A DNA stretch of 64,000 nt from the NCBI GenBank assembly GCA_910575255.1, contig CAJTEM010000002.1, forward strand, positions 1 through 64,000, given 5' to 3'. The notes beneath the pieces are model-generated. The model searched no databases. It was not told the DNA's origin and saw only the letters and a program-made list of their open reading frames with translations. This DNA comes from Lachnospiraceae bacterium. Its GTDB lineage: Bacteria > Bacillota > Clostridia > Lachnospirales > Lachnospiraceae. Below are positions 11,307-38,016 of this stretch, piece by piece; positions within the stretch are counted from its first letter, which is position 1, and each line of letters starts with the position of its first letter. The translations under genes were made by a program, and so were the position numbers.

Positions 11307-11348
11307 ATAACATAGGTTATATCCTTTTTTTGAATTCTATGCTACAAT
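11307..11348 (+). promoter_or_regulatory. CRP/FNR-type operator and promoter of DASS transporter 1
   Basis: Inverted repeat ATAACATAGGTTAT (11307-11320) has its centre exactly 29 nt upstream of a TACAAT -10 box (11343-11348), which is position -41.5. No good -35 hexamer is present, as expected for an activator-dependent class II promoter. The same geometry occurs at 13,004, 36,297 and 38,003. Confidence 0.8.
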
Positions 11349-11406
11349 TTGAACATAAGTTACAAATTTAACAATCTTTCAAAAAAGGGAAAGGGGTATT
11401 TTAGCA

Positions 11407-12882
11407 ATGGCTAGTACAGCAAACAAAAAAGAGCAAGCCACTCTGATTCACTCCGCTGTCGGTGTAGGTATCATGCTATTCTTCCGGTTCCTGCCTCTCA
11501 GCCTCCCGGAGGTCACTCCGGTCGGTATGGAAATCCTGGGTGTATTCCTGGGGACTCTGTACCTGTGGACCTTTGTTGACCCGATCTGGGGCAGCATCAT
11601 GTCCATCGCCATGGTTGGTTTTTCCTCCTACAGCAACATGTCTGCAGTAATCGGTGAAGCCTTCGGCTCCCCGGTGGTCTGCCAGGTATTGTTCATGCAG
11701 ATCATGTCCGGCGGTCTGGCCTACTACAAGATCACCGGCTATATGGGACGTTTCTTCCTGACCAGGAAATTCACCAACGGCAAGCCCTGGCTGCTGATGG
11801 GCGTCATCTGTATGGGATGCTATTTCATCGCTGGTTTCGTCAATGCATTCACTCCCATCTTCGTCATGTGGCCCGTCCTTTACGGAGTATTTGACGAGGT
11901 TGGCTACAAGAAAGGCGATCCGTTCCCGAGAGTTGCCATCACCCTTGTTGTGATTGCCTCCCTGATCGGTTTCCCGATGGCTCCCTTCGCACAGAACGGC
12001 CTGGCCCTCTTAAGCAACTTCGAAAAGATCAGCGCCGAGATGCCTGGCGGCCCGATTGCAGTCAACAGCGGCGGATATCTGCTGACAGCCATTATCCTGG
12101 GCATGATTCTGATTGTTGCCGTTGTCCTGTTTGCCAAGTTTGTCCTGCGTCCGGATGCTTCCCGGCTCAAGGACTACGATGTGGAAAGCTTAAACCGCAA
12201 TCCGCTTCCGCCTCTTTCCCTGGGACAGAAGCTGTATATCCTGGGCTTTGTCCTGGTAATTCTTGGTATGATGATCCCGTCTTTGGTTCCTGCCCTGCCC
12301 TTCATGGGATACTTAAAGGGCTGTGTCTACGGCCTGGCCATGTTTATCGCTGCCTGCCTGGCTGCCATCCGCATCAAGGGTGAGCCGGTGCTCGATATCG
12401 CCAAGGTTCTGGAGACCAACAGCTGGGGCGCTTACTTTATCATTGTTGCTGCCATCCTGTTAGGCGGCGTACTTACCAACCAGGCCACCGGTATTTCCGG
12501 ATTCCTGCGGGTAATGCTTACCCCCATTTTCCAGGGCATGTCCCCCACCGTCTTCATCATCCTGCTGCTGGGTCTTGGCGGTATCCTGACAAACCTTTGC
12601 AACAGCCTGGTGATCGGTATGCTTTTGCAGCCCATCATCATCACCTATTGTACCCAGGCCGGTGCAGATCCCAGGCCGATTGTGACCCTGATGATCCAGT
12701 TTGTACTGCTGTCTGCCTGCGTAACTCCGGCTGCTTCTCCCTTTGCCGCGCTTTTGCACAGCAATAAGGAATGGGTTCCTACCAAATATGTATATTCCTA
12801 CACTCTGCCCATGGTTCTTATCGAACTGGTGCTGATGTTAATCATCGGAATCCCGTTGGCCACCATGCTGTGTGGCGCCTGA
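11407..12882 (+). CDS. DASS-type anion transporter 1 (SLC13/CitT-like)
   Basis: A 491-residue polytopic membrane protein with roughly 12 hydrophobic segments in the divalent anion:sodium symporter / ion transporter superfamily. Family-like loops include GGVLTNQATGISG, LTNLCNSLVIG and TPAASPFAALLHSNKEW. The start has an AAAGGGG site 8-9 nt upstream. It is paralogous over its whole length to the carrier at 34,756. It is followed by a terminator and then by the thioredoxin reductase-thioredoxin-sulfotransferase operon under the same operator type. Inferred substrate: an organic anion such as an aryl sulfate, or sulfate itself. The substrate cannot be read from sequence. Confidence 0.85.
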   Translation: MASTANKKEQATLIHSAVGVGIMLFFRFLPLSLPEVTPVGMEILGVFLGTLYLWTFVDPIWGSIMSIAMVGFSSYSNMSAVIGEAFGSPVVCQVLFMQIMSGGLAYYKITGYMGRFFLTRKFTNGKPWLLMGVICMGCYFIAGFVNAFTPIFVMWPVLYGVFDEVGYKKGDPFPRVAITLVVIASLIGFPMAPFAQNGLALLSNFEKISAEMPGGPIAVNSGGYLLTAIILGMILIVAVVLFAKFVLRPDASRLKDYDVESLNRNPLPPLSLGQKLYILGFVLVILGMMIPSLVPALPFMGYLKGCVYGLAMFIAACLAAIRIKGEPVLDIAKVLETNSWGAYFIIVAAILLGGVLTNQATGISGFLRVMLTPIFQGMSPTVFIILLLGLGGILTNLCNSLVIGMLLQPIIITYCTQAGADPRPIVTLMIQFVLLSACVTPAASPFAALLHSNKEWVPTKYVYSYTLPMVLIELVLMLIIGIPLATMLCGA

Positions 12883-12890
12883 TTCTGAAT

Positions 12891-12941
12891 GTTATCCGGC
12901 AAGGTGCATTTTCACCGCACTTTGCCGGATAACAGCAATTT
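12891..12941 (+). terminator. Terminator after DASS transporter 1
   Basis: GTTATCCGGCAA-G-GTGC (12891-12907) pairs with GCAC-T-TTGCCGGATAAC (12917-12933), followed by AGCAATTTT. Confidence 0.85.
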
Positions 12942-13003
12942 TACAAGGTTATTCTTCACTTTCAGCAAATAGAAAATAAAGTTTTCACAAAACTCAATTT
13001 TTC

Positions 13004-13045
13004 TTAACATTTTTTATAGAATATTTTGCCAAAAACCGTTATAAT
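13004..13045 (+). promoter_or_regulatory. CRP/FNR-type operator and promoter of trxB-trxA-assT
   Basis: A weaker repeat TTAACATTTTTTAT (13004-13017; left half perfect, right half 4 of 5) is centred exactly 29 nt upstream of a consensus TATAAT (13040-13045). Geometry is identical to the two transporter promoters. Confidence 0.65.
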
Positions 13046-13174
13046 AAAGGGTAGTTGGGCACAAGGTGCAAAACTATCCGTTTTCAGAACGCCATATTAC
13101 GGAGTTTGGACTTTCCTCCCGTTTTGGGAGGGGAAGGCGGACGGATTAAGACAAAATGGAGGAGGTCGATTAAA

Positions 13175-14095
13175 ATGGCACAATACGATCTGATCATCAT
13201 CGGCGCCGGCCCTGCCGGCATGACCGCCGCTATCTACGGTGCACGGGCAGATATGAATGTCCTGATGCTGGATAAGCTGGCGCCCGGCGGGCAGATCATC
13301 AACACAAATGAGATTCAGAACTATACCGGTGTGGGTACCGTTAACGGTGCTGAACTTGCCTATCAGATGTTTGAACATACCCAGCAGTTTGACACCATCA
13401 CCTTTGACTATGCAACCGTCAAGGAGGTTGTGGACAAGGGCGGGGAAAAACTGGTCCGCTGCGAGGAGGATGACAAAGAATTTACCGCCAGTTCCGTGAT
13501 CCTTGCCACCGGCACCCGTCCCAGATGCCTGCATGTCACCGGCGAAGACAAGTTCCGGGGCAACGGCATCAGCTGGTGTGCAATCTGCGACGGCGCCCAA
13601 TACCGGGACAAGGACGTGGTTGTGATCGGAGGCGGCAACTCTGCTGTGGAGGAATCCATTTTCCTGGCAGGCATTGTGAAATCTCTGACCATTGTCACCA
13701 TGTTTGACCTGACTGCCGACCCCATTGCCTGTGACAAGCTGCGGGCCATGGACAAGGTAAGCATTTATCCCTACCAGGATATTCTTGAGTTTGTGGGCGA
13801 TACCCGCCTGGAGGGAGTCCGCTTCCGTTCCACCAAGACCGGCGAGGAAAAGACCGTAAGCTGCGACGGTGTGTTTGAGTACATCGGCCTGACTCCCACC
13901 ACCGAGTGCTTCAAGGAACTGGGCGTGTTAAACCAGATGGGATATGTGGAGGTCAATGACCGGATGGTAACCAAGGTTCCCGGTATTTTCGGCGCCGGAG
14001 ACTGTGTCACCAAGAACCTGCGCCAGGTGATCACCGCCTGTGCGGACGGTGCCATCGCTGCCCAGGAAGCATCCCATTACGTAAAGAACCTGTAG
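13175..14095 (+). CDS. trxB: Thioredoxin reductase
   Basis: A 306-residue low-molecular-weight thioredoxin reductase; it uses NADPH to reduce thioredoxin through FAD and a redox disulfide. The start at 13,175 follows GGAGG by 9 nt and gives the standard MAQYDLIIIGAGPAG FAD-binding N-terminus. The redox centre is CAIC (usual CATC) near residues 134-137, followed by the NADPH-binding GGGNSAVEE. The C-terminal GIFGAGDC FAD motif is intact. It is first gene of trxB-trxA-assT, 89 nt before trxA, under a CRP/FNR-type operator. The context suggests a reductase dedicated to the sulfotransferase module rather than, or in addition to, a general one. Confidence 0.95.
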   Translation: MAQYDLIIIGAGPAGMTAAIYGARADMNVLMLDKLAPGGQIINTNEIQNYTGVGTVNGAELAYQMFEHTQQFDTITFDYATVKEVVDKGGEKLVRCEEDDKEFTASSVILATGTRPRCLHVTGEDKFRGNGISWCAICDGAQYRDKDVVVIGGGNSAVEESIFLAGIVKSLTIVTMFDLTADPIACDKLRAMDKVSIYPYQDILEFVGDTRLEGVRFRSTKTGEEKTVSCDGVFEYIGLTPTTECFKELGVLNQMGYVEVNDRMVTKVPGIFGAGDCVTKNLRQVITACADGAIAAQEASHYVKNL

Positions 14096-14184
14096 GCTTT
14101 CCGAGTTTTCTCCCGCTGGTTTGCTCCGTCAAAGCAAGGGCGGGAGGGAGTTTTGAGAGTACACAATATATAAGGAGGTACAAC

Positions 14185-14496
14185 ATGTTAAAAGAAGTAA
14201 ACAGTACAGAATTCAAGGAGTTGGTCGACAAGGGACTGGTGCTTGCCGACTTCTTCTCCACCACCTGCGGCCCCTGCAAGATGCTGAGTTTCGTCTTAAA
14301 GGATGTGGAAAAGGAGTTCGGTGATGACCTGACCATCTTAAAGGTGGATTTTGACCAGAACAAGGAACTGACTGCCGAATACAATGTTGCCGGCTATCCC
14401 ACCCTGATTCTGCTGAAGGACGGGGCTGAGGTGAAGCGCCTGCAGGGCCTGCAGCAGAAACCGGTTATTGTCAAACTGGTTAAGGAGAATATCTGA
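14185..14496 (+). CDS. trxA: Thioredoxin
   Basis: A 103-residue thioredoxin with the active-site CGPC near residues 30-33 (STTCGPCKML) and the cis-Pro loop GYPTLIL. Normal length, cytoplasmic. AAGGAGG lies 6-7 nt upstream. It sits between thioredoxin reductase and the aryl-sulfate sulfotransferase, 38 nt before the latter's start, so the three are almost certainly co-transcribed. Inference: it keeps a Cys in the sulfotransferase reduced, or serves another enzyme of the regulon. Confidence 0.95.
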   Translation: MLKEVNSTEFKELVDKGLVLADFFSTTCGPCKMLSFVLKDVEKEFGDDLTILKVDFDQNKELTAEYNVAGYPTLILLKDGAEVKRLQGLQQKPVIVKLVKENI

Positions 14497-14534
14497 ATCA
14501 GCCAATTATAATGTATAATGGAGGAAAACAACCC

Positions 14535-16412
14535 ATGAGTGTTAAATATATCTTAGAAAAACATTTGATCGACCGCCAGGCAGAAGCTGAGGAAGCCATG
14601 TTAAAGGAATTTGAGGCCGGCAATTTTACCATCCAGAATCCTCTGGTAAAATACAACCTCTATGAGGTCAGCCCCTTGAGCGCCGTGGTTTGCTTTGAGA
14701 CCAAGAACGAGACCCCTGTGACGATTACCGTGCTGGGCAAGACCAAAGAAGCCAACATCAGCCACACCTTCCCCAAGGCAAAGAAGCATGTCCTGCCGGT
14801 TGTGGGACTGTACTCCAACTATGCCAACCAGGTAGAGATCCGCGCTTACCGGGGCGAGTCCAACGTGATTACCATCGATGTGCCGGATGTGTACGACGGC
14901 GAGAATCCCATCTACCACATGCACACCACTCCGGAATATCTCCAGGACAATGTGATCATGGTATCTCCGGCCGGCCTGCAGCTTTCTTCTGCTTTTGACT
15001 ATGCAGGGGACGCCCGCTGGCACATGAACGTGGCCTGTGTATTTGATATCAAGCGCTTAAGAAACGGCAACCTGATCATGGGCACCCATCGTCTGTTAAA
15101 GATGCCCTACTATATGTCCGGCCTTTATGAGATCAGCCCCTGCGGCAAGGTCTACAAAGAATTCCGCCTCCCCGGCGGCTACCACCACGATGAGTTTGAG
15201 ATGGAGGACGGCAACCTGCTGGTGCTGACCGATGACTTAGAGAGCGATACCGTGGAGGATATGTGTGTCCTGATCGACCGCAACACCGGCGAGATCTTAA
15301 AGACCTGGGATTACAAGAAATTCCTCAATCCTGAGACCGTAAGCCATTCCGGCAGCTGGTCTGAGGAAGACTGGTTCCACAACAACGCAGTATGGTATGA
15401 CAAGAACACCAATTCCCTGACCTTCTCCGGCCGCCATATCGATTCCATGGTGAACATCGATTTTGACAGCGGGGAACTGAACTGGATCATCGGGGATCCG
15501 GCCGGCTGGCCCCAGGATATGGTGGACAAATACTTCTTCAAACCTGTTGGCAATAACTTCGGCTGGCAGTATGAGCAGCATGCCAATGTGATCACCCCCA
15601 ACGGTGATGTGATGTGCTTTGACAACCACCACTATGGCTGCAAGCAGGTAGACCGGGATACCAAGAACCTGGCTGCCAAGGACAACTACTCCAGAGGCGT
15701 CCGTTACCGCATCAACACCGAGGATATGACCATCGAGCAGGTATGGGAGTACGGAAAAGACCGGGGCGCCGAGTTCTTCTCTCCCTACATCTGTAATGTA
15801 GAGTACTACAATGAGGGGCACTACATGGTTCACTCCGGCGGTATTGCCTATGACAAGGACGGGGCTCCTTCTGAGGCTTTGGGTGCATTTGTTAAGGATG
15901 TGGGCGGCACCTGCCGCAGCATCACGGTTGAGGTATGCGACGGCAAGGTAATGCTGGATCTGGAGGTTCCCGGCAACTACTACCGTGCCGAGAAGCTGAA
16001 ACTGTACAGCGACGGCATCAACCTGGAACTGGGCAAGGGACAGATCTTAGGTAAGATGGGCCACACCAAAGAATTCGACACCGAGATCCCCATGGAGAAT
16101 TCCGGCGAGATGCTTCCCGACAGCTGCAATGCCAGAATCGAGGAAGAGATCGACCGCTTCACCTTCTTCTCCCGCTTCGAAAAGGGCCAGATGGTGATGA
16201 TGCTCTTAGAACAGGGCGATGAGGTTCACAGATATTACATCTCTACCACCGCTGTTTCCTACCTGGCTATGTGCTGCGGAACCTTCTTAGATTCCGACGA
16301 GCGCAACACCAGAACCAGCGTCAACAAGGCCGGCTTAAAGGGTGTCTATGATGTGAGAGTGATTGTGGATGACAAGAAATATGAGACCGGTGTAAAGATC
16401 ACCTGCGAATAA
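14535..16412 (+). CDS. Aryl-sulfate sulfotransferase 1 (cytoplasmic, PAPS-independent)
   Basis: A 625-residue arylsulfotransferase (ASST/AssT family), which moves a sulfuryl group from a phenolic sulfate ester to another phenol without PAPS. The start at 14,535 follows GGAGGAAAA by 6-8 nt; an ATG 24 nt upstream has no site. Residues 1-120 form the N-terminal beta domain. The beta-propeller carries the family's His-rich motifs: GYHHDEFEMEDGN (~215-227), DWFHNN (His ~282), SGRH (~301), EQHAN (~349), SRGVRYR (~386-391) and HSGG (His ~433), the last being the likely counterpart of the sulfated His of E. coli AssT. No signal peptide is present, unlike periplasmic AssT. It is ~70% alike by eye to the copy at 32,823. 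Confidence 0.92.
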   Translation: MSVKYILEKHLIDRQAEAEEAMLKEFEAGNFTIQNPLVKYNLYEVSPLSAVVCFETKNETPVTITVLGKTKEANISHTFPKAKKHVLPVVGLYSNYANQVEIRAYRGESNVITIDVPDVYDGENPIYHMHTTPEYLQDNVIMVSPAGLQLSSAFDYAGDARWHMNVACVFDIKRLRNGNLIMGTHRLLKMPYYMSGLYEISPCGKVYKEFRLPGGYHHDEFEMEDGNLLVLTDDLESDTVEDMCVLIDRNTGEILKTWDYKKFLNPETVSHSGSWSEEDWFHNNAVWYDKNTNSLTFSGRHIDSMVNIDFDSGELNWIIGDPAGWPQDMVDKYFFKPVGNNFGWQYEQHANVITPNGDVMCFDNHHYGCKQVDRDTKNLAAKDNYSRGVRYRINTEDMTIEQVWEYGKDRGAEFFSPYICNVEYYNEGHYMVHSGGIAYDKDGAPSEALGAFVKDVGGTCRSITVEVCDGKVMLDLEVPGNYYRAEKLKLYSDGINLELGKGQILGKMGHTKEFDTEIPMENSGEMLPDSCNARIEEEIDRFTFFSRFEKGQMVMMLLEQGDEVHRYYISTTAVSYLAMCCGTFLDSDERNTRTSVNKAGLKGVYDVRVIVDDKKYETGVKITCE

Positions 16413-16434
16413 CAGAAAGAAAATTTCCTGGATT

Positions 16435-16472
16435 CAGGGGAAGGGCCGCAGCCCTTCCCCTGTGCTTTGTCA
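16435..16472 (+). terminator. Terminator of the trxB-trxA-assT operon
   Basis: An 11-bp perfect stem CAGGGGAAGGG (16435-16445) / CCCTTCCCCTG (16452-16462), loop CCGCAG, followed by TGCTTTG. The T-run is poor. Confidence 0.65.
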
Positions 16473-16537
16473 GGGACATTCCTCCCCTGACAGCCCTATA
16501 TTCTATCCGCTAAATACAGCGTTGCCTAAATCCCCTC

Positions 16538-16804
16538 TTACCCCGGCCACAAATTCGCCTCGATAAATTCCTTCAACCTTATCCCTTCCTCCTGCTCCTT
16601 TTCGCCTTCCACCAGAATCTCCAGGGTTTCACCTGCCTTGGCGGAAAGGGAGAGCACATGAAAAATCAACTTGGCGTCACCGCTTTTTTCTCCCTTCCTG
16701 ATCTGCACCCTGCTGGTACACTGAATCGCTTCTTTTACCAGCCTTCCGGCAGCCTCCGGCAAAAGGCCGGCAGGATCTTTTATCTGAAATTCCCATTTGA
16801 CCAT
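16538..16804 (-). CDS. HPr-like protein lacking the phosphorylatable His (second copy)
   Basis: An 88-residue HPr-fold protein. The N-terminal motif DPAGLLPEAAGRLVKEA aligns with the HPr active-site motif NPxGLHARPAxxLV, with His replaced by Leu and Arg by Glu, so phosphate transfer as in a PTS is not expected. The C-terminal ETLEILVEGEKEQ matches the HPr strand pattern. An AAGGGGAG site precedes the start. It is last gene of a minus-strand cluster with a Cof-type phosphatase, a small membrane protein and PTS IID/IIC remnants, so it may be the leftover HPr-like part of a sugar locus. Confidence 0.7.
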   Translation of the reverse strand: MVKWEFQIKDPAGLLPEAAGRLVKEAIQCTSRVQIRKGEKSGDAKLIFHVLSLSAKAGETLEILVEGEKEQEEGIRLKEFIEANLWPG

Positions 16805-16819
16805 AGTTTTTCTCCCCTT

Positions 16820-17629
16820 TTACACGGACAGATAGCGGTTCAGCCCCAAGGCAATTCCTCCCTCATTGTTGCTCCTTGTGACGAAATCCGCCATATTCTT
16901 TACTTCCTCAATGGCATTTCCCATGGCAATGGCTGTGCCCGCCTTTAAAAGCATGGGAATGTCCAGTTCCTGATCGCCAAAGGCAATGCTCTCCTCAGGG
17001 CTGACAGCCAGCCTCTCACAGATCGCCTCCAGCGCCTCCCCTTTGTTGGCTCCCTCAGGAAATATTTCAAGATAAATCTCTGAGGAACGTGCCATATCCA
17101 CTCCGGAAGGCCCGTGGGCCTTCATTTTGGCCTGGACCTGGCAAACCGTCTCCGGATCTGCGCCGATCAGAAGCTTGTTGGGGCCGTATCCCTCCCTTTT
17201 CCACTCCTGTTCCAACGTCTTTAAATCCCTGACTTCGGGCTGATAATGAATAATCCGGCTCTCTCGCTCCACATAGGCATCCTTTCCGGTCACATACCAT
17301 CTTCTCCCCTGGAAAATCCACAAAGGAATATTCCAGTCTGCCAAAAAGCCTTCCTCAATCTCCCGGGCTGCCTCATAGGGCAGGCATCTGCTGTGGATGC
17401 ATTCCTCTCCCATAAGAATATACGTCCCTGCATTGCAGGCCTTGATACAGGGAATAGAAAGCTCCTTCTCCACCAGTTCGGCTGCCGCCGGCATCCTTCC
17501 TGTAATCAGTGCAATCCGGATCCCCATATCGTGTGCCTTTTTCAGGCTTTCCTTTACCGGATCCGGAACCCTTTTTTCATCATTCAAAAGGGTTCCGTCC
17601 ACGTCCAAACAAATCAGCTTATACGACAT
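16820..17629 (-). CDS. Cof-type HAD-IIB phosphatase
   Basis: A 269-residue HAD-IIB hydrolase. Motif I CLDVDGTLLND is near residues 7-17, motif II ITGRMP near 42-47, and motif IV FGDQELDIPML near 215-225. The C-terminal GGIALGLNRYL region is typical of Cof proteins. It dephosphorylates a sugar phosphate or flavin-type substrate, not determinable here. It overlaps the upstream small membrane-protein gene by 16 nt and is followed after 15 nt by the HPr-like gene. Confidence 0.92.
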   Translation of the reverse strand: MSYKLICLDVDGTLLNDEKRVPDPVKESLKKAHDMGIRIALITGRMPAAAELVEKELSIPCIKACNAGTYILMGEECIHSRCLPYEAAREIEEGFLADWNIPLWIFQGRRWYVTGKDAYVERESRIIHYQPEVRDLKTLEQEWKREGYGPNKLLIGADPETVCQVQAKMKAHGPSGVDMARSSEIYLEIFPEGANKGEALEAICERLAVSPEESIAFGDQELDIPMLLKAGTAIAMGNAIEEVKNMADFVTRSNNEGGIALGLNRYLSV

Positions 17630-17913
17630 GCTTCACCTGCCTCCAACCGATTTAATATCTTTTCCACATTGCGCTTTCCGTTCCGAATCCCCAGATTCAA
17701 TACTGCCGCGCTCCCCACGCCGGCAAGAATCAGAAGAATGCCCGAAATGCCGAAGAAAAGATTTTCCCCCTGTCCCCCAAAACCTGCATAGAGAAATGCC
17801 ACACCAATGGCAGACAGGGCAAGTGCTGTTTTTTTCCATCCCTCAATCTGTCCCAAAGCCTTTATCTGAAGCGCCGCCTCCCGGGATAACCGGTTCTTCT
17901 CCGCAATATTCAT
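17614..17913 (-). CDS. Small two-TM membrane protein of unknown function
   Basis: A 99-residue protein with two hydrophobic segments (TALALSAIGVAFLYAGF, then LFFGISGILLILAGVGSAAV) flanked by charged ends. The start at 17,913 has GGAGG 6-7 nt upstream. The family is not recognised. It overlaps the Cof phosphatase by 16 nt and follows the PTS IID remnant. Confidence 0.65.
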   Translation of the reverse strand: MNIAEKNRLSREAALQIKALGQIEGWKKTALALSAIGVAFLYAGFGGQGENLFFGISGILLILAGVGSAAVLNLGIRNGKRNVEKILNRLEAGEACRIS

Positions 17914-17950
17914 AACATTTCCTCCGCCATACACCGTCAGGTTTCCTCTT

Positions 17951-18670
17951 TTAGTACACAAGCCCCGGATTGAAGAATCCCAGCAGCACGCCCACAAAGG
18001 CAACCACCACCAAGAGCAGCATCACTTTAATGGGCGACATCCGTTTTTTTGCCATCAAAAACCAGCAGGCAATCACGAAAACGGCTGTCAGAAGACCAGG
18101 AAACACCTCGTTCAACTTATCCTGCAGCACCAGATAGGGTTCTCCGGCTTCATTGAGAAGCTGCAGGGATGTGGTGACGCTGACCCAGGTTGCGGATACG
18201 GCTCCGATCACCATTCCGCCCAGGATGGAAACTGACTCCCGGATGGCATCTCCCTGTGCCCCGATCAGGAACTCCACCGCTTTGGTGCCCAGGCTGTAGC
18301 CTTTAAAATACAGAAACCGCATTCCCAGATAGGCGAATAAGTTCCAGACAACAATGTAGAAAATCGCTCCCAGGGGAGAACCTCCGGTGGACATTCCCAT
18401 GGCAATACCCAGGAGAATGGGAATCACGGTTCCCACCACCAGGGAATCCCCAATTCCCGCAATGGGTCCCATCAGGCCGGCGCGGAGGCCATTGATGGTC
18501 TCGTCATCCACATCCTCGGTTCCGCTTGCCCTTGCCTCCTCCAGGCCCGCGGTAATGCCTACAATCAGGGTCCCCAGCTGAGGCTCTGTGTTGAAAAATG
18601 CAGTGTAGGTATTCATAGCCTTTGCTTTGTCGTCCTCATTGTCATATAAGTCCTCCACCAGAGGAAGCAT
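17951..18670 (-). pseudogene. Mannose-family PTS component IID, N-terminally truncated
   Basis: The body is a clear IID subunit (FNTEPQLGTLIVGITAGLEE, then MGPIAGIGDSLVVGTVIP, C-terminal FNPGLVY), an inner-membrane part of a mannose/sorbose-type sugar uptake system. The family's first ~40 residues are missing. The sequence before the ATG still reads GYLCSMLP, where intact IID has GYxxAMLP, in frame but joined out of frame to IIC. It could still be translated from internal ATG 18,670, so function is uncertain. IIA and IIB genes are absent. Confidence 0.75.
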
Positions 18671-19062
18671 GGAACACAGATATCCTCCTCGTCATCATCA
18701 TATCCGCCGGCAACAGCAGCCCTGCTCACGGACAGCATTTTAATCTTATAGTTAATGACTGCAAACATTCCGGCAATCACGGTTGCCGATACCAGGTTGA
18801 TTCCCATGGATGCTGCCAGGGTAAACCCAAACAGATAGGGAATAAAGTCTGTCACCTGCTTGACAATCTGCTTTAACAGAATCGCAATACCTACACAGGG
18901 AAGGAGCGAGCCTACGGTAAACAGGGTTTTCATGGCAATCCCGTCCATGGGAAGGGTGGTCTTAATCAATTCTACCACACTGGTTCCCATCTTACACATG
19001 ATCAATGTGGGAATAAAGGAACAGATGAAGTGGGATACCCAGGGCAAAACCATGTCAACCAC
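18613..19062 (-). pseudogene. Mannose-family PTS component IIC, C-terminal fragment
   Basis: Residues TLPMDGIAMKTLFTVGSLLP through FGFTLAASMGINLVSATVI and the acidic tail GGYDDDEED are the C-terminal half of a IIC subunit. The N-terminal half and a proper start are missing. The frame runs past the natural end into IID in another frame, showing that a deletion removed the IIC stop and the IID start together. Confidence 0.75.
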
Positions 19063-19404: not shown

Positions 19405-19426
19405 AAATCTTTTGTTTCTCCTCTTT

Positions 19427-27363: not shown

Positions 27364-27364
27364 T

Positions 27365-30328: not shown

Positions 30329-30603
30329 GGCTGCTGGGCGCGATTCTGCTGGTCACCGGTTTCGGAATCGGTAAGATCGGGCTGGAAAAGATTTTTGCCG
30401 GCCACTATGAAACTCTGGCCGTTTCCAGCGTCCTCGCCCTGGCTGCCGCCCTCATTTCTATCGTTTCCAAGGAGATCATGTACTGCTACCCCCGGCATTA
30501 CGCCAAAATCGTGAACTCCCCGGCCTTTATGGCCGATGCCTGGCATCACCGGTCGGACGTCAAGCATATCACGATCCATCCGAATCCCTCGACGTACGGA
30601 TAA
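30329..30603 (+). pseudogene. Cation diffusion facilitator (CDF) gene with internal deletions
   Basis: Plus-strand frame with LLGAILLVTGFGIGKIGLEK, SVLALAAALISIVSKEIMY and FMADAWHHRSD, the zinc-site helix of CDF exporters, which then jumps to VKHITIHPNP, the end of the CDF cytoplasmic domain. The N-terminal membrane segments and ~100 residues between the two blocks are missing. Confidence 0.75.
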
Positions 30604-30612
30604 GCAATCCGC

Positions 30613-32520
30613 TCAGTCCGTCACCACCACATACCTGGCCTCCCCGAAGAATCCCTGTTCCTCCAGATCTTCCTCTGGCCACTCTGCCACCAGTTCGTAG
30701 ACCTTGTCCGGCTTAAGAGGCAGCATCACTTGTCCTGTATACACCTTCACCGCAGGCTCTGCTGTCTCTGCCTTCCCCAACTGGGAGATGTCCCACTCAT
30801 GGAGAGTCACCCTCCCCGGCATCCTCGCGCAGCTTAACCTATAATTCACCTCTTCCTGTCCCTTATAGTGCGGAATCTTCAACCTTTTTGTTTTTTCCGG
30901 ATCCACATCCAGGGGATGGCTCCCGCAGGCCACCTGGCCCACCATCTCCCCGTTCTCCCTCCAATTCCAGGAACAATTGCCCGGCTGCACCGTAAACGAC
31001 TGCCAGCTGCTGGACAATACATCCACCAGCCCGATTTCCGGGGCCGAGGTCAGAAGCAGGTCATTCTCCGCCTTTTCGGCTTCCCCCTCGGGATTCCTGC
31101 ACACTCCCAGAAACAGCCAGGTACCGTGGGTATCATCCCGGATCCCGAACAAAAAGGGTCGGTCAAGAATCATCTCCGCCATCTCCTCATTCTGAATCAT
31201 GGCTCCCCTGGCCAGGGTCATCATGGTGTAGGCAGCCCCCTCCACTCCATTCTCATCCACACCGATGTGGGTCTCCTGAATCACATCCGACACCATCAGC
31301 GGATCCGGGGAAATGCCTCCGAACTCTGCCTGTTCCCCGAACATCCTCTCCATTCCCATGGCCTTTAAGGTATCCTTAAGCTGGTAGCTGCTGCCAAAGT
31401 CGAACTTCGGCACCTTCCAGACCACCTTTCCGCTGACCCAGTCCTCCTCCTTCACCTCCAGGGCCTCTCCAAGCCTCTCCTGGCTTTCCAGAAATTCCCC
31501 CACGGTTCTGTCCTCATCCGGCAAAAGAAACATCATCCGGCAGTTATTGTCGGTTCCCAGATAAGACAAGGTATATCCCTCTCCCCTTTTGAAGGCTCCC
31601 TCCATCTGCGTCCGGTTCAGATAAGGAACCACAACCTGGCCTCCCTCCTCTAAGTAAAACGCATCCTCCTGTGTCATTTCCCCGGAAAACGGCTCTGCCC
31701 ATCCTCCGTAAAAATACAGGGTATTGAGAATCGCCAGAAGGGTTGCCGGATCTGGCTCAAGCCGGGGGGAAAGCACTCCTCTGGTCTTTTGGGAAATCCA
31801 CTCTCCCATCTTCTTGCCTGTATCCGGACTCCCGAAATCCACCCCATAGGAGGAGGCAAAAAAATTCTCCCCTGCCAGCTTCTGGTATTCCTGAAAAATA
31901 TTCAGCTGATCGGATATCCACAGGGAATTGCCCAACTGGATGGTACTCCGGTAATCCTCCATGCCGTAATACTCCATCCTTTCCTGTTCCCTCTGACTGT
32001 GGTATGCATAGGACTGATAAAGCCTGCGGCACTGGTCCGCCAGTTCCTCTTGGTCGGTTACCCCCAGCCTTTCCAAAATCTGTTCCGCCGTCTCCCCCTC
32101 GGCGCCGCAGCCTGCCAGCGCCAGGGTATAGTAGAGGCTTAAAGGACTGTAATTCCCGTTTCCTTCGGCACATTTCAGAACCGCGCTCCCGCTCTCATAG
32201 GCAAAGGCATCAAGCCCTTTGGCAAAGGCCTCCGAAATCTGATTCTCGGCCAACAGCTGATTCCAGCCCTCATAATCCTCCGGGGAAAGTTCTGCCTTCT
32301 CCGGTTCCCGGGCTTTACAGGTTTCCCCCTTGCTATACTTCTGCTTCTCCATAGGTTCCTGTTCTTCCTTTCCCGTCATATCGGCCTCTGGTCCGGAACT
32401 TTCCCCGGCCACCTGGCTCTGCCCCGGGGATGCCCCCGTCTTCTGGCAGCCGGTTACTGCCGTTACTGCCATTGCCGCTGCCATCAGGCAGGCTATCCGC
32501 TGTTTTCTGTGATTCCTCAT
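30613..32520 (-). CDS. Serpin lipoprotein with C-terminal extension
   Basis: A 635-residue surface lipoprotein. The signal peptide ends with VTGC, the Cys near residue 25, followed by a Glu-rich linker to ~residue 75. Residues ~80-490 are a serpin: NYSPLSLYYTLALAGCGAEG, then LNTLYFYGGWAEPFSG, KVPKFDFGSSYQLKDTL and the reactive-loop hinge DENGVEGAAYT leading to RPFLFGIRD. Counting from the hinge puts the scissile bond around ARGAM. The last ~145 residues are a beta-rich extension (FTVQPGNCSWNWRENGEMVG) not found in standard serpins. Serpins trap serine or cysteine proteases irreversibly; in gut bacteria they target host proteases. Preceded by a strong leader hairpin. Confidence 0.9.
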   Translation of the reverse strand: MRNHRKQRIACLMAAAMAVTAVTGCQKTGASPGQSQVAGESSGPEADMTGKEEQEPMEKQKYSKGETCKAREPEKAELSPEDYEGWNQLLAENQISEAFAKGLDAFAYESGSAVLKCAEGNGNYSPLSLYYTLALAGCGAEGETAEQILERLGVTDQEELADQCRRLYQSYAYHSQREQERMEYYGMEDYRSTIQLGNSLWISDQLNIFQEYQKLAGENFFASSYGVDFGSPDTGKKMGEWISQKTRGVLSPRLEPDPATLLAILNTLYFYGGWAEPFSGEMTQEDAFYLEEGGQVVVPYLNRTQMEGAFKRGEGYTLSYLGTDNNCRMMFLLPDEDRTVGEFLESQERLGEALEVKEEDWVSGKVVWKVPKFDFGSSYQLKDTLKAMGMERMFGEQAEFGGISPDPLMVSDVIQETHIGVDENGVEGAAYTMMTLARGAMIQNEEMAEMILDRPFLFGIRDDTHGTWLFLGVCRNPEGEAEKAENDLLLTSAPEIGLVDVLSSSWQSFTVQPGNCSWNWRENGEMVGQVACGSHPLDVDPEKTKRLKIPHYKGQEEVNYRLSCARMPGRVTLHEWDISQLGKAETAEPAVKVYTGQVMLPLKPDKVYELVAEWPEEDLEEQGFFGEARYVVVTD

Positions 32521-32553
32521 GGTTTTCTCCTCTCTTCGGTTTACCGGGACCTG

Positions 32554-32585
32554 GCCACTGGTGTGCTGGTCAGTACACCAGTGGC
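32554..32585 (-). promoter_or_regulatory. Hairpin in the serpin 5' leader
   Basis: GCCACTGGTGT (32554-32564) pairs perfectly with ACACCAGTGGC (32575-32585), loop of 10 nt, 34 nt upstream of the serpin start. It could be an operator or an RNA element. The remainder of 32,586-32,741 shows no gene. Confidence 0.5.
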
Positions 32586-32742
32586 TTGTCTTGTTTCTTC
32601 ATGATACATACCATACGGATGGCGGAATGGAATTTATGGAAAATATTTCTTACGAATTGTTTACAGCCATTGCTTCCGCCCCCTGCATTACCCTGTATTT
32701 CAACAAATGAAAATATTTCCGGCTTTTTCATTGATTCAAAAA

Positions 32743-32782
32743 ATACAGACCGGAATCCCATCCTTTCCGGTCTGTTTTTTAT
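32743..32782. terminator. Bidirectional terminator between assT2 and the serpin gene
   Basis: ACAGACCGGAA pairs with TTCCGGTCTGT (loop TCCCATCCT), T-run on the plus side and AAAAAA-flank giving T-run on the minus side. It would end the minus-strand assT2 transcript. Confidence 0.8.
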
Positions 32783-32822
32783 TTCTGCGATCTATATACC
32801 AAAACTGTACTGGCACCGATGA

Positions 32823-34691
32823 TCAGCAATGAATCTTAACCCCGGTCTCAAACTTCTCGTCATCCACGATCACCCGCACATCATAGTCACCGGAAAGCCC
32901 TGCCTTGTTGACACTCAGCATAATCGCCCGCCCGTCCTTGTTGATAAAGGTGCCGCAGCAAAGAGCCTCAAACTTGTTGGCAGCCGTGGAGATATAATAG
33001 CGGTGCTTCTCCTCCCCCTGCTCCAGCATAAGCATCACCAGCTGGCCCTTTTCAAAAACTGCCTTGTAGGTGAAACGGTCATCTTCCTCAATCAGTTCGG
33101 AACCATACTTATCCGGAATCATAACGCCAGAGGTCTCCAGCGGGATATCCGTGTCAAATTCCTTCGTCACTCCCATGGAACCCAAAAATACCCCCTTGCC
33201 CATGGTAAGATTATCCTGGTCATGATACAGATGCAGTTTCTCTGCCCGATAGAAGTTCCCTTCCACCTCCAGTTCCATCATCACCTGGTCATCTAACACC
33301 TCCACCGTGATACTCCTGGTGGACACATCCGGATCATCCTGCATCAATGCAGCAAACTGCTCAGAGGCCACTCCCTTATAATACTGAATACCGCCGGAAT
33401 GAACCATATAGTGGCCTTCCTTATAATATTCCACATTGCAGATATAGGAAGAGAAAAACTCCGCTCCCCGCTCCTTACCATACTGCCATACCTGGCGGAT
33501 GGTCATATCATCCGTATTGATCTTATAGCGGACGCCCCGGGAGAAATTGTCCTTGTTCAGGCGGTACTGCTCCCGGATCTTGGAACGGAAATGCCCATTG
33601 TCAAAGCACATCACATCTCCGTCCGGGGTAATCAGGTTTGCATGCTGCTCATACTGCCAGTCAAACTCCCCATCCCCCACAGGAGTAAAGAAATACTTCT
33701 GATACTTCTCCGGCCATCCGGTAGGATCCCCGATAATCCAGTTCAGTTCCCCGCTGTCATAATCAATATTCACCATAGAGTCAATATGACGCCCGGAGAA
33801 AGTGAGCGAATTGGTATTCTTGTCGTACCATACCGCATTGTTGTGGAACCAGTCATGGGCAGACCAGCTTCCCGACTTGCTGCACCCCGGATCCAAAAAC
33901 TTCTTGTAATCCCAGGTCTTTAAGATCTCACCCGTATTCCGGTCCACCAGGACACACATATCCTCCACGGTATCGCTTCTTAAATCCTCGGTCAGAACCA
34001 GCAGGTTGCCGTCCTCCATTTCAAACTGGTCATGGTGATAGCCTCCCGGGATTCCGAACTCCTTATAAATCTTACCCGCCATGCTCATCTCATAAATGCC
34101 GGACATATAATAAGGAATCTGCAGCAAACGGTCTGTGCCCACACAGATATTGCCGTTCTTCAGACGTTTTAAGTCAAATACCACCGGAATATTCAGATAC
34201 CAGCGGATCTCACCCTGATAATCAAAACCTGTTGCCAGCTGAGTCAGAGCCGGGGTGATAATGATAATCTGATCCCGCAGATAGCCGGCTGTGGTATTCA
34301 TATGTATCAGCTTCGGCACATCCTTTCCCAAAGGCTCTGTCTTGATATGGATGGTTTTCTTAAAGCCCCGGTACAGTTCAATCTCCACCGTATTGTCATA
34401 ATCCGCATACAATCCCAGAACCGGCAGAATGTGGGTCTTTGCCCGGGGGAAGGTATGGCTGATATTCCCCTGGGGCTGCTCCTTGCCCAGAACCGTCACC
34501 GTCACAGCGGTCTCCTCCTCGGTCTTGAAAAGCACCACCGCAGCCAAGGGATTGATCAGATACGGATTATACTTCACAAGAGGCTCCTGGATCGTATAAT
34601 TGCCAGCCTCAAACTCCGCCAGCATAGCAGCTTCCGCCTCCGCCTGGCGGGTCAGGATTGACGGCAGGAACGAATACTTAATGGACTCCAT
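32823..34691 (-). CDS. Aryl-sulfate sulfotransferase 2 (cytoplasmic)
   Basis: A 622-residue ASST-family enzyme paralogous along its whole length to the copy at 14,535. The same His/Arg motifs are kept: GYHHDQFEMEDGN, DWFHNNAVWYD, SGRHIDSMVNID, YEQHANLITPDGD, SRGVRYKIN and HYMVHSGG. No signal peptide (N-terminus MESIKYSFLP), so the protein is cytoplasmic. A Cys shared with copy 1 lies 13 residues before the last His (YICNVEYY). AGGAGG precedes the start. It lies 64 nt downstream of DASS transporter 2 in the same orientation, so transporter and enzyme form an operon driven by the operator at 36.3 kb. Confidence 0.92.
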   Translation of the reverse strand: MESIKYSFLPSILTRQAEAEAAMLAEFEAGNYTIQEPLVKYNPYLINPLAAVVLFKTEEETAVTVTVLGKEQPQGNISHTFPRAKTHILPVLGLYADYDNTVEIELYRGFKKTIHIKTEPLGKDVPKLIHMNTTAGYLRDQIIIITPALTQLATGFDYQGEIRWYLNIPVVFDLKRLKNGNICVGTDRLLQIPYYMSGIYEMSMAGKIYKEFGIPGGYHHDQFEMEDGNLLVLTEDLRSDTVEDMCVLVDRNTGEILKTWDYKKFLDPGCSKSGSWSAHDWFHNNAVWYDKNTNSLTFSGRHIDSMVNIDYDSGELNWIIGDPTGWPEKYQKYFFTPVGDGEFDWQYEQHANLITPDGDVMCFDNGHFRSKIREQYRLNKDNFSRGVRYKINTDDMTIRQVWQYGKERGAEFFSSYICNVEYYKEGHYMVHSGGIQYYKGVASEQFAALMQDDPDVSTRSITVEVLDDQVMMELEVEGNFYRAEKLHLYHDQDNLTMGKGVFLGSMGVTKEFDTDIPLETSGVMIPDKYGSELIEEDDRFTYKAVFEKGQLVMLMLEQGEEKHRYYISTAANKFEALCCGTFINKDGRAIMLSVNKAGLSGDYDVRVIVDDEKFETGVKIHC

Positions 34692-34755
34692 AACAAATTC
34701 CTCCTTTTAAGAAAATATAATAAATACTACCCTCAACAGATGAGAGCATTATCAC

Positions 34756-36231
34756 TCAATGAATCAGCGCCGTGGCAAAGGGAATCCCCACCGCAATCAC
34801 CAGAACCAGCTCAATAACCGCAAACATCATGGTATACTTGTAAATCTCCCCGGATTTCAGCCACTCCTTATTGCCATGAATCATAGCCGCAAAGGGCGAG
34901 GCCGAGGGAGTCACGGAAGCGCTTGCCAGCACAAAGATAATAATCAAGGATGTAATCGGCGCCGAATTAATCCCGCTCGACAGGCAGAAGGAGGCGATCA
35001 CCGGCTGCATCAGCATCCCCACCACCAGGCTGTTGCAGATGTTCGTCAACAGCAAAGTGATCACCAGCAGGGCCACATAGAACATCACCAGGGACATGCT
35101 GCTGAAAACCGGGCGCAAAATGGTATTCAGGAATGCGGAAATACCGGTGGACTCATTGGTCAGCACACTTCCCAGAAGAATGGCAGCCGTACAGAGGAAA
35201 AAGGTTCCCCAGGCAAAGCCATTCAGCACCTTGCCAAAAGGCAGCACCGGCTCATGCTTCTCCTTATCCAGGCTGACGCAGCAAAGCAATGCCGTATAGC
35301 CCAGGGCAATCCCGTAATTGTTCACACTCAAAAACTGCATAATCTTCAGCTTTGGCAGCATACTTGGCAGAAGCATGGTGAGAATATAGATCACAAAAGA
35401 CACTGCCATGAACTTCTGATTGCCGTTTAAGGGAGGCAGCGGATTCCTCTTCAGCATCTCCACATCCAGATTCTTAAGCTTGGACACATCCGGCCTCAGC
35501 ACATATTTACAGAAGAGAACAATCACCGCGATAGACACAAAGCCGTACACCAGAGCCACCGCCAGATAGGCCGCATTATTGATGATCACCTTGCTGCCCA
35601 TATTCTCCGTAATCCCGGCGTAGTTACCGATCAGAGCCAGGGAATTCCCGCTGTACGGCGGAACCGGAAACCCCAGGAGTGTGGCAATGGCCACCAGAAT
35701 CAGCATAATCGTAGGATATTTCTCCCCCTTCTCAATGCCGATCTCCTGGAAAATATCATAAAGCACTGGCCAGAACAAAAAGATCGGAGAAAAAGGCCCC
35801 ACAAAAGCAGCCATCAGCATGGCTCCTACCATCAACATGGCGGTAAACACCCAGGGGCGTCCATTATTGATCTTCATGGTCAGAAAAAAACGCCCGATAT
35901 AGGCAGTCAGCTTATTGTAGACCATCGAATTCATGACAATCATCAAAAACAGCATCTGAATCACTACCGGATTCCCAAAGGCAGCGGACAGCACCTGGTT
36001 CATAGGCCCATAGCTGGACACCCCGATCATAAAGATACTTAAAAGACTTGACCAGACCGGATCCACCGTCGTCCACAGATATAAGGTTCCGATAAACACC
36101 CCGATAATCTCCATACCTACAGGAGTGACTTCCGGAAGATGAAGTGGAAGGTAACGAAACAAAAACATAATGGCCACACCCACCAGAGAGTGGACCGCCC
36201 GTCGGCTGATTGAAGCAGAAGAATTGCTCAT
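34756..36231 (-). CDS. DASS-type anion transporter 2 (SLC13/CitT-like)
   Basis: A 491-residue polytopic carrier, the same length as the paralogue at 11,407 and colinear with it: LPEVTPVGMEI, LRPDVSKLKNLDVE, NPLPPL, LTNESTGISAFL, LTNICNSLVVG and TPSASPFAAMIHGNKEW. The start at 36,231 follows GGAGG; upstream in-frame codons run through the operator and are rejected. Co-transcribed with assT2. Inferred role: import or exchange of an organic sulfate anion used by the sulfotransferase. Some DASS carriers are exchangers, which would suit substrate-product antiport. Confidence 0.87.
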   Translation of the reverse strand: MSNSSASISRRAVHSLVGVAIMFLFRYLPLHLPEVTPVGMEIIGVFIGTLYLWTTVDPVWSSLLSIFMIGVSSYGPMNQVLSAAFGNPVVIQMLFLMIVMNSMVYNKLTAYIGRFFLTMKINNGRPWVFTAMLMVGAMLMAAFVGPFSPIFLFWPVLYDIFQEIGIEKGEKYPTIMLILVAIATLLGFPVPPYSGNSLALIGNYAGITENMGSKVIINNAAYLAVALVYGFVSIAVIVLFCKYVLRPDVSKLKNLDVEMLKRNPLPPLNGNQKFMAVSFVIYILTMLLPSMLPKLKIMQFLSVNNYGIALGYTALLCCVSLDKEKHEPVLPFGKVLNGFAWGTFFLCTAAILLGSVLTNESTGISAFLNTILRPVFSSMSLVMFYVALLVITLLLTNICNSLVVGMLMQPVIASFCLSSGINSAPITSLIIIFVLASASVTPSASPFAAMIHGNKEWLKSGEIYKYTMMFAVIELVLVIAVGIPFATALIH

Positions 36232-36268
36232 TAGTAAATACCTCCATTTCTTTTTTATTCCTGTTATT

Positions 36269-36310
36269 ATTTTAACATCCATTTGTCCAATATAGCATAA
36301 CATATGTTAA
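36269..36310 (-). promoter_or_regulatory. CRP/FNR-type operator and promoter of DASS2-assT2
   Basis: Plus-strand ATAACATATGTTAA (36297-36310); on the minus strand its centre is exactly 29 nt upstream of a TAAAAT -10 box (36269-36274). It lies in the divergent region before the CRP/FNR gene. Confidence 0.8.
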
Positions 36311-36443
36311 GTTTTTGAAAAAATATGGTAAAACTCTCTAAACAGTGGTATACTGTTTCCAGACGAGCTTTTGTACAGCATTCCATTCATTCTCGAGTAA
36401 TCCATGCTGTACCAGGAATTTCAATAAGGATGGTAATCGTATT

Positions 36444-37130
36444 ATGGAAACAAAATACGGAGTATTTGATTGCTTTTTTACCTATGGGGAACGAATTGTG
36501 GTAGAAAAGAACAAGATTATCTATGCCCCGGACAATAAAGCCCAGTCAGACTCCCTCTACTTTCTGGAATCCGGGCTGGTGGCTCTGATGAGCTATTCCC
36601 GGGGAGGCGAGGAACGGGTATATCTCTATATGAAGGGACCGCGGATCATTTCCTTTATGTCTCTTTTGCTGGACGCCACCAACTGCCAGGAAATCACTGG
36701 CAATGCCATACCCAGCCACTTAGTCCAGATGACCAAAACCCGCTGTGTGCTTTACCGGATGCAGGGATCCGTCTTCCGCAGACTTTTAGACGAGGATCTG
36801 AAATTCAACCGCCTGATGCTGCAGGCAACTGCCTCCAATTTCCAGGAGGTCTTAAGCCATTTCCAGCAGGCTTTAGAGGACAGCGCCAGTGTTCGTCTGT
36901 GCCGCCTGCTCCTGGATTTCTACATCACCAGAGACGGCAAAAAGTTTCTTCCCAAAACCATGAGCTTCTTGGAGATGTCTAAATACTTAGGCACCCATCC
37001 TGTCACGGTCTCCCGCATTGTGGCTATCCTGAAAAAAGAAGGCTGCATTGCCAAAGAACAGGGTTATGTAGTAATCCGGGATGAAAACCGGCTGCAGGAA
37101 ATGATTGAAAACGGAATTGATATTAAATAA
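36444..37130 (+). CDS. CRP/FNR-family regulator, CprK-like
   Basis: A 228-residue regulator with an N-terminal cyclic-nucleotide-binding-type beta-roll (KNKIIYAPDNKAQSDSLYFL, then SGLVALMSYSRGGEERVYLY), a long dimer helix (NFQEVLSHFQQALEDSAS), and a C-terminal winged helix with recognition helix THPVTVSRIVAILKK. The HPVTVSR helix and the ~230-residue length resemble CprK, the phenol-responsive activator of Desulfitobacterium (from memory). No N-terminal Cys cluster for an FNR iron-sulfur centre. The start at 36,444 follows AAGGATGG. Its gene is divergent from DASS2-assT2 and it is the obvious candidate for the four shared operators. Confidence 0.88.
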   Translation: METKYGVFDCFFTYGERIVVEKNKIIYAPDNKAQSDSLYFLESGLVALMSYSRGGEERVYLYMKGPRIISFMSLLLDATNCQEITGNAIPSHLVQMTKTRCVLYRMQGSVFRRLLDEDLKFNRLMLQATASNFQEVLSHFQQALEDSASVRLCRLLLDFYITRDGKKFLPKTMSFLEMSKYLGTHPVTVSRIVAILKKEGCIAKEQGYVVIRDENRLQEMIENGIDIK

Positions 37131-37141
37131 AATCCGACCAA

Positions 37142-37195
37142 AAAGCTGCCCTGTCAGCCCAAATACCCATACAGCCGACAGGACAGCTTTTCCCA
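37142..37195. terminator. Bidirectional terminator between the regulator and PRTase-like genes
   Basis: AAAAAGCTG-CCCTGTC pairs with GACAGG-ACAGCTTTT around a ~22-nt loop, with A-run and T-run on opposite sides; the two flanking genes converge. Confidence 0.75.
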
Positions 37196-37214
37196 CTCAA
37201 AAGTTCAGAACTCC

Positions 37215-37943
37215 TTAATCCAGAACCGTGTACCCATAGCTGTTGACAATCGCATCCAGTTTCACACCATTCTGACAATCCGGACAATTGGCAGGATCGG
37301 AAAGTCTGAAATCCGGCAGATCCGTCACGTCAAACACAGAATTCACCGGATAGCCGTCAATCTCATCCACAGCTGAGAAAACCACAGAGATCCCCTCAAT
37401 GATACCGCCATAGGAATTAATGCAGCGGATACTCTTGGCAATGGTCCTGCCGGACATCGCAGTTGCAAGAACCACCAGCACATGCTTATCCTTTAGCATA
37501 GGACGGATATTATCCCGCACCACCATCTGACCTGCAGAGTCAAATTCCGGGGTAATGATATAACTGGTATGATGGCTGTTCAAGGTAGTAACTCCCACAT
37601 TGGAAAGTTCCTCTGCCACATAAGCCCCGATCACCTCACACCCATCCATACAGATAATCGTATCAATAGGAGTCTTGGTAGCCAGAGAAGCCATCATCTG
37701 CTGCATCTCTGCACCGGCAAGGGAAATATTCCCGGCCAAATTCTCCAGGTTTACCCGCTTCACATAGCGGGACACCATGGCCTTCGCCACCTCCTGCGCA
37801 TCCTTGCGGCGCATTTTCAAAGAGGTCATGTCAATATAATAGTTAATATGAAAACGATCCGAGGAAAAGTGTCCCTTTGTAACCTTCAGCATTACCTCAG
37901 GATGTTCCTTTGCATAGATTTTTATTGGTTTCTGCATACTCAT
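37215..37943 (-). CDS. Phosphoribosyltransferase-like protein (orotate PRTase fold)
   Basis: A 242-residue protein with a type I phosphoribosyltransferase fold: the hood and core include TPIDTIICMDGCEVIGAYVA and a PRPP-loop-like VLVVLATAMSGRTI (near 155-168), where the usual acidic pair plus TGGS is altered to ATAMSGRT. The C-terminus has a CPDC pair (NCPDCQNG). AGGAGG precedes the start at 37,943. It converges on the CRP/FNR gene and its own promoter carries the same operator, so it appears to belong to the sulfotransferase regulon. Its substrate is unknown; I would not call it pyrE. Confidence 0.75.
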   Translation of the reverse strand: MSMQKPIKIYAKEHPEVMLKVTKGHFSSDRFHINYYIDMTSLKMRRKDAQEVAKAMVSRYVKRVNLENLAGNISLAGAEMQQMMASLATKTPIDTIICMDGCEVIGAYVAEELSNVGVTTLNSHHTSYIITPEFDSAGQMVVRDNIRPMLKDKHVLVVLATAMSGRTIAKSIRCINSYGGIIEGISVVFSAVDEIDGYPVNSVFDVTDLPDFRLSDPANCPDCQNGVKLDAIVNSYGYTVLD

Positions 37944-37974
37944 AGCCGATACCTCCTGTGATATTCTTATAGTC

Positions 37975-38016
37975 AGCGTACCGCAAAAACCACAAAAAAT
38001 CCATAACAAAGGTTAA
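37975..38016 (-). promoter_or_regulatory. CRP/FNR-type operator and promoter of the PRTase-like gene
   Basis: Plus-strand ATAACAAAGGTTAA (38003-38016); on the minus strand the centre is 29 nt upstream of TACGCT (37975-37980), a TAxxxT -10 hexamer. The -10 is weak, so the assignment rests mainly on the repeat and spacing. Confidence 0.6.

Follow-up and report, generated by a model that had tools for sequence, protein, structure and literature searches.

An operator shared by genes for aryl-sulfate sulfotransferases, a variant thioredoxin and sulfite reductase that appears to control the use of aryl sulfates in a Lachnospiraceae bacterium

Genes and operators of the locus

We analyzed a stretch of 64,000 nucleotides from a Lachnospiraceae bacterium (assembly GCA_910575255.1, contig CAJTEM010000002.1, positions 1 to 64,000), here referred to as the window, which carries genes for aryl-sulfate sulfotransferases (AssT), anion carriers, a thioredoxin pair and a CRP/FNR-type regulator with a common operator. 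On the forward strand a gene for a CitMHS/DASS-type anion carrier, here named DASS1 (11407..12882; PF03600, E 1.8e-12), is followed by trxB for a thioredoxin reductase with the redox motif WCAICD (13175..14095; TIGR01292 with 320 bits, below the cut-off of 343), trxA for a variant thioredoxin with the active site TTCGPC (14185..14496; PF00085, E 9e-25) and assT1 for an aryl-sulfate sulfotransferase without evident signal peptide (14511..16412). The reverse strand carries assT2 (32823..34691; PF05935, E 3e-105) and DASS2, a paralogue of DASS1 (34756..36231, the start picked by its ribosome site). The gene of the regulator, a presumed activator, lies on the forward strand (36444..37130; PF13545 and PF00027), and a gene for a phosphoribosyltransferase (PRTase)-like protein with a changed phosphoribosyl pyrophosphate (PRPP)-loop motif on the reverse strand (37215..37943; PRK02277, E 1.4e-5, below cut-off).

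An earlier note on this DNA had described inverted repeats at 11307, 13004, 36297 and 38003, each centred 29 nt upstream of a -10 hexamer. On re-reading, the letters of the repeats were as claimed and the measured distance was 29 nt at all four operators. Operator 1 (ATAACATAGGTTAT, 11307..11320) and operator 2 (TTAACATTTTTTAT, 9 of 10 positions, 13004..13017) are orientated in the forward direction and precede TACAAT (11343-11348) and TATAAT (13040-13045), respectively. On the reverse strand, operator 3 (TTAACATATGTTAT, 36297..36310) precedes TAAAAT (36269-36274) and operator 4 (TTAACCTTTGTTAT, 38003..38016) precedes TACGCT (37975-37980), which is a poor -10 element (3 of 6 positions) in front of the PRTase-like gene. 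With respect to transcription starts predicted from the sequence, the distance of 29 nt fits the placement of a class II activator (-41.5). The note had further assigned the four promoters to DASS1, trxB-trxA-assT1, DASS2-assT2 and the PRTase-like gene, an assignment supported by the conservation of this unit in relatives, and the regulator gene is indeed divergent from the third promoter, operator 3 being common to it and DASS2.

Within the window the palindrome alone was not significant, as 7 matches with at most one mismatch compared with 3.1 expected and at least 7 were obtained in 6 of 100 shuffles. The significance of the operator is therefore based on its fixed spacing and its conservation in relatives.

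Operator 3 overlaps the start of DASS2 given by the ORF caller (36303), while the start at 36231 has a good ribosome site. The regulator gene's own putative -10 element, TATACT, is located 45 nt from the centre of the shared operator. This matches neither -41.5 nor -61.5, and autoactivation of the class I or class II type was therefore rejected. The leader of the trxB transcript (13046-13174) would be well over 100 nt long and contains an inverted repeat, TCCTCCCGTTTTGGGAGGGGA; Rfam gave no match between 10000 and 39000 of the window, this leader included.

Among PDB sequences DASS1 matched no carrier and only weakly a mechanosensitive channel and designed proteins, and for DASS2 no Pfam or NCBIfam match was found at 1e-3. 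A relative at locus L206 shares 72% identity with DASS2 and 48% with DASS1. The PRTase-like protein showed a weak match to an adenine PRTase of the PDB (E 0.2). It carries VLATAMSGRT at the expected PRPP-binding loop, where the usual Asp pair is absent, and may therefore be a sensor and not an enzyme. Despite this changed loop, its gene has the same operator in each of the two lineages described below.

Conservation of the operator and linkage to asrABC

The earlier note had suggested a scan of the genome and its relatives for the operator at 29 nt before a -10 hexamer, and enrichment at these genes was found. Among 24 genomes of the genus, which as members of one genus are not independent, the pattern WTAAC-N4-GTTAW-N22-TANNNT had 37 matches and the same pattern read backward, used as control, had 16. 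Judged by position or BLAST, 34 of the 37 are located before genes for DASS carriers, PRTase-like proteins or AssT. Another match (G008:C259) resembles the DASS1 promoter, judged without its downstream gene, and the other two (G010:C206 and G005:C14) are inside ORFs that appear unrelated. Counted among the 34 is an operator in genome G004, which lacks assT; a short remnant of a DASS gene (L211, 3290-3694) lies behind it, as if the system had decayed there.

Operator 1 was found at the same spacing in 9/9 close genomes (8 exact, one with 9/10 positions), the DASS2 or assT2 operator in 10/10 close genomes, and the PRTase-like operator with TANNNT at N22 in 10/10 genomes (8 exact, 2 with 9/10). 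The trxB operator was present in 7 of 9 close genomes, the window included, with 8-9/10 positions and TATAAT at the same spacing; it was decayed in the other two (L071 and L074).

A search for related loci beyond the genus returned 67; loci of the genus genomes and duplicates were removed before counting, and the counts are not independent, as many of the loci are from close relatives. For exact operators before DASS genes TANNNT was found at gap 22 in 29/30 cases (20 also at gap 17), and before PRTase-like genes in 10/10. The corresponding values were 0/6 for other ORFs and 0/19 for the regulator genes. In the fetched loci an operator with 9-10/10 positions and a -10 element of at least 4/6 at N22 preceded DASS genes in 32 of 59 upstream regions, compared with 1 of 771 other upstream regions. 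Loci with the operator include those of Hungatella hathewayi, H. effluvii, Diplocloster and metagenome-assembled genomes of other Clostridia. Based on these results, we have very little doubt that the regulon is real.

The exact operator with a -10 element was not seen in L080-L082, L143-L146, L155-L156 or the loci of Erysipelotrichaceae and Desulfosporosinus. L080, L081 and L082 represent second copies of assT-DASS-CRP in which the regulator is more distant and the operator is absent; two of the three have an upstream sequence similar to TTAACGYATNNTGTATGTTAC in common.

In relatives the regulator gene is divergent from DASS-trxB-trxA-assT(-assT2), often together with the PRTase-like gene, and DASS-trxB-trxA-assT forms a single operon. 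One lineage thus has an operon with one promoter and the lineage of the window a regulon with several, each with the operator, which lends independent support to a common control. Different arrangements were found as well. In the outlying loci L161 and L162 the gene after trxB-trxA-assT encodes a putative sulfate exporter of the YeiH type (below the NCBIfam cut-off), and in L161 a gene for a protein with a cyclic nucleotide (cNMP)-binding domain is located upstream of trxB. Genes resembling AraC-type regulators (below model cut-offs) replace the CRP gene before DASS-trx-assT in two loci of Erysipelotrichaceae type (L154, 5717-7012; L159, 5683-6969). A serpin-type gene of 635 amino acids (PF00079; 30613-32520, reverse strand) adjoins assT2 in the window, and serpin matches are found beside assT2 in L062 and L064, too.

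The composition of the locus in relatives extends to anaerobic-type sulfite reductase genes. In Hungatella hathewayi and Diplocloster modestus asrA, asrB and asrC are the three genes directly after assT; in the two loci scanned (L135 and L183) their products match TIGR02910-02912, all above the curated cut-offs. In a tblastn search of the 44 loci where trxA and assT are neighbours, 21 had asrA downstream of assT in the same orientation at a distance of no more than 2.6 kb. The other 23 comprise 10 from genomes with asrC elsewhere, L147 with asrBC at the contig end, and 12 with none in the DNA covered. Within the genus, asrC was found above cut-off in 16/24 genomes, i.e. in 15/15 with assT and 1/9 without (Fisher 1.2e-5, relatedness ignored). 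An order-wide search found AssT in 8/295 genomes, too few of them close for a wider test of co-occurrence.

The genome of the window has asrABC on contig C12 (asrC above cut-off, asrA and asrB by tblastn). Its promoter, TTAATTTTTGTTAA-N22-TACAAT, combines the same spacing with a slightly relaxed operator, one half of the site being TTAAT. The relaxed pattern WTAAY-N4-GTTAW-N22-TANNNT occurs at four places in the 5.14 Mb genome, before DASS1, DASS2, the PRTase-like gene and asrABC. In close genomes the asrABC operator was present at 8/8 stand-alone asrABC promoters (6 with 9/10 and 2 with 8/10 positions). At L087, where asrABC follows assT, no operator precedes asrABC; it is found before that assT instead.

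Regulator, sulfotransferase and thioredoxin

The regulator belongs to the CRP/FNR superfamily, with PF00027 and PF13545 above gathering thresholds and a CRP/FNR fold (AlphaFold2 model with a predicted local distance difference test score, pLDDT, of 90). The earlier note had called it CprK-like after the halorespiration regulator of Desulfitobacterium, and this stood in part. CprK was the best match among PDB sequences (E 2.9e-4), tied with a Thermus regulator (E 4.3e-4), and the Val of the CprK recognition helix (V192; here V187) is found in 28 of 30 regulators, with Ile in 2. On the other hand, the search with the predicted fold ranked NtcA, CRP and FNR first; CprK was not among the 50 matches listed, which does not exclude a relationship of the modelled protein to it. 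CprK shares with our regulator the fold and an operator built from a pair of 5-bp halves spaced by N4. According to PMC2610375, V192 of CprK demands a pyrimidine at operator position 20, which is T in both operators. The operators of this study are WTAAC-N4-GTTAW, however, and when TTAAC-N4-GTTAA is compared with the dehalobox TTAAT-N4-ATTAA, C/G takes the place of T/A at the innermost position of both halves. The target genes differ as well. Judged by sequence, the regulator is thus CprK-like at one DNA contact only.

Only one Cys column (C101) is invariant in 30/30 regulators. FNR of the 4Fe-4S type has a conserved cluster of cysteines for its iron-sulfur centre, and with a single invariant Cys this type of sensing is unlikely here. 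From the gene linkage we infer that the regulator binds these operators. According to parts of PMC13426309, Eubacterium A-44 makes more of the AssT enzyme when given donor aryl sulfates; this would be consistent with a ligand that is either an aryl sulfate or its phenol.

AssT1 carries the PF05935 domain and can be assigned to the aryl-sulfate sulfotransferases, its model being confident (pLDDT 92.5). The residues H226, H290, R308 and H357 are invariant in 63 sequences and align with H252, H356, R374 and H436 of E. coli AssT (3elq), which we take to be the catalytic residues (H436 is also named in PDB titles). The periplasmic AssT that depends on DsbL/DsbI has an essential disulfide and an export signal. 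In AssT1 the stretch with the E. coli disulfide cysteines is missing from the alignment, and no hydrophobic N-terminus was seen by eye. Since the cysteine-bearing stretch is absent, a Dsb-like role in folding is unlikely for the neighbouring thioredoxin. The AssT of E. coli and Klebsiella, found with DsbA or DsbL/DsbI as far as described in the parts of PMC13426309 considered, are thus alike in fold, catalytic residues and a neighbouring gene of the thioredoxin fold. They differ in that AssT1 is cytoplasmic by inspection and lacks a disulfide of the E. coli type, that its partner is a reducing TrxB/TrxA pair, and that a sulfite reductase is linked.

The thioredoxins linked to AssT have the active site TCGPC in 43/51 cases and a Trp before the first active Cys in 0/51, while two other thioredoxins in the genome of the window are both WCGPC. 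In the C-terminal part of AssT1, outside the Pfam domain, C588 (16272-16274) is invariant in 108/108 sequences; this residue could serve the thioredoxin as a relay or for docking.

A proposed route from aryl sulfates to sulfide

The genes, the operator they share at one spacing, the linkage to asrABC and the altered thioredoxin are read directly from the DNA. The presence of asrABC in the operon of relatives and under the same promoter architecture points to a reductive use of the sulfuryl group. We propose a regulon for reductive aryl sulfate use under the control of the CRP/FNR-type protein, which we regard as the best and a fairly probable reading. The DASS carriers would import aryl sulfates, and the catalytic histidine of the cytoplasmic AssT would accept the sulfuryl group, with release of the phenol. 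The dedicated TCGPC thioredoxin would then receive this group as an S-sulfonate, from which sulfite would be expelled by the second cysteine of the thioredoxin. TrxB would re-reduce the thioredoxin and AsrABC reduce sulfite to sulfide, so that an aryl sulfate would replace adenosine 5'-phosphosulfate (APS) or 3'-phosphoadenosine 5'-phosphosulfate (PAPS) as pre-activated sulfate and serve as electron sink, sulfur source or both. Of the conserved genes the pathway leaves only the PRTase-like one unexplained, and it would be the reason why thioredoxin, TrxB and Asr travel with AssT. It also draws support from H. effluvii, which carries these genes at L134 and L155 and of whose AssT copies one was proven active on p-nitrophenyl sulfate (PMC11576661), and from the putative sulfate exporter encoded after trxB-trxA-assT in L161 and L162. 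For its central step, the direct transfer from AssT to the dedicated thioredoxin, we consider the chances to be evenly balanced.

The single steps have precedents. Aryl sulfates are energy-rich sulfate donors, PAPS reductase (CysH) forms an S-sulfonate from which a vicinal thiol expels sulfite, and the thioredoxin-dependent reduction of S-sulfonates is established chemistry. Assimilation by CysH is alike in the activated sulfate, the S-sulfonate step, thioredoxin, sulfite and sulfite reductase. It differs in that PF01747 ATP sulfurylase was found in 0/24 genus genomes, for which reason an ATP-sulfurylase route was rejected, and that the aryl sulfate itself would be the activated form. The taurine/isethionate route of Bilophila likewise leads from an organic sulfur compound via sulfite to sulfide by a sulfite reductase, as far as passages of PMC6386719 describe it; there a glycyl radical enzyme cleaves a C-S bond, whereas here an O-SO3 ester would be opened by AssT and thioredoxin.

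Several points weigh against this proposal. Sulfuryl transfer by AssT to a thiol was not found in the parts of the literature consulted, and the main text of the H. effluvii paper (PMC11576661) has no word beginning with 'thiol'. Proteins with PF01507 (PAPS reductase/CysD-like) occur in 10/24 genus genomes; those scanned, two of the genome of the window and one of G012, were all below the cysH model cut-offs. Twelve of the 44 trxA-assT loci had no asr gene in the DNA considered; some are short, and about 10 kb of space was available in L154, L158, L159, L161, L163, L164 and L141. Genome G003 carries asrC without assT, and G015 has assT and asrC and no match to the regulator. Finally, the asrABC operator is imperfect, with 9/10 or 8/10 positions, and was already known when the relaxed pattern was drawn up; read backward as a control, this pattern gave 2 matches.

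The earlier note had regarded intracellular transsulfation as the end function, an idea that gave way once asrABC was found with the same promoter architecture and in the operon of relatives. Aryl sulfates would in this case be taken up and their sulfate passed to other phenols within the cell for detoxification or exchange, the thioredoxin keeping AssT reduced. The Pfam assignment and fold of AssT agree with this, and phenols have been sulfated in vitro by AssT enzymes (PMC11576661, PMC13426309). Transsulfation leaves asrABC in both operon and regulon unexplained, and without the disulfide stretch a folding role of the thioredoxin is improbable; we therefore consider it unlikely. Even less likely, in our view, is a transfer of the sulfuryl group first to a small thiol such as cysteine or coenzyme A, from whose S-sulfonate thioredoxin would free sulfite, the other steps being as proposed above. 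It draws on the same genes and the same established thioredoxin chemistry, but a dedicated thioredoxin with altered active site suggests a special partner and not a general S-sulfonate. That a general anaerobic or redox regulator controls both sulfite detoxification and aryl sulfate exchange as functions unrelated to each other is very improbable even though CRP/FNR proteins often sense redox and C101 is invariant. The four promoters at which the relaxed pattern occurs in the genome all belong to this gene set, and the same genes form one operon in relatives.

For reductive aryl sulfate use, no description of AssT, thioredoxin and Asr together was recognised in the open PMC literature (titles, beginnings of abstracts and some passages, bioRxiv preprints not covered). 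It could equally prove right or wrong that this is an undescribed pathway of Firmicutes, in which AssT and the TCGPC thioredoxin turn imported aryl sulfates directly into sulfite without ATP, APS or PAPS, AsrABC forms sulfide, and a CRP/FNR regulator senses phenols or aryl sulfates. AssT would then be a sulfite-releasing and not a sulfating enzyme, with the sulfates of p-cresol, indoxyl or drugs among its candidate substrates in gut and environmental Firmicutes.

AssT has mainly been studied as a sulfating enzyme in vitro, and its tie to a thioredoxin and a sulfite reductase offers a natural role. As far as its DNA tells, this gut bacterium appears to switch on by one DNA signal the genes to import sulfated phenols and to make from them sulfite and then hydrogen sulfide. 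A study of human gut metagenomes found asr genes to be twice as abundant as dsr genes, according to passages of PMC9016944. If the proposal is true, aryl sulfates would be a source of sulfite for gut bacteria with Asr, and sulfated phenols, whether of host, dietary or drug origin, could feed the production of hydrogen sulfide, with the free phenol being returned.

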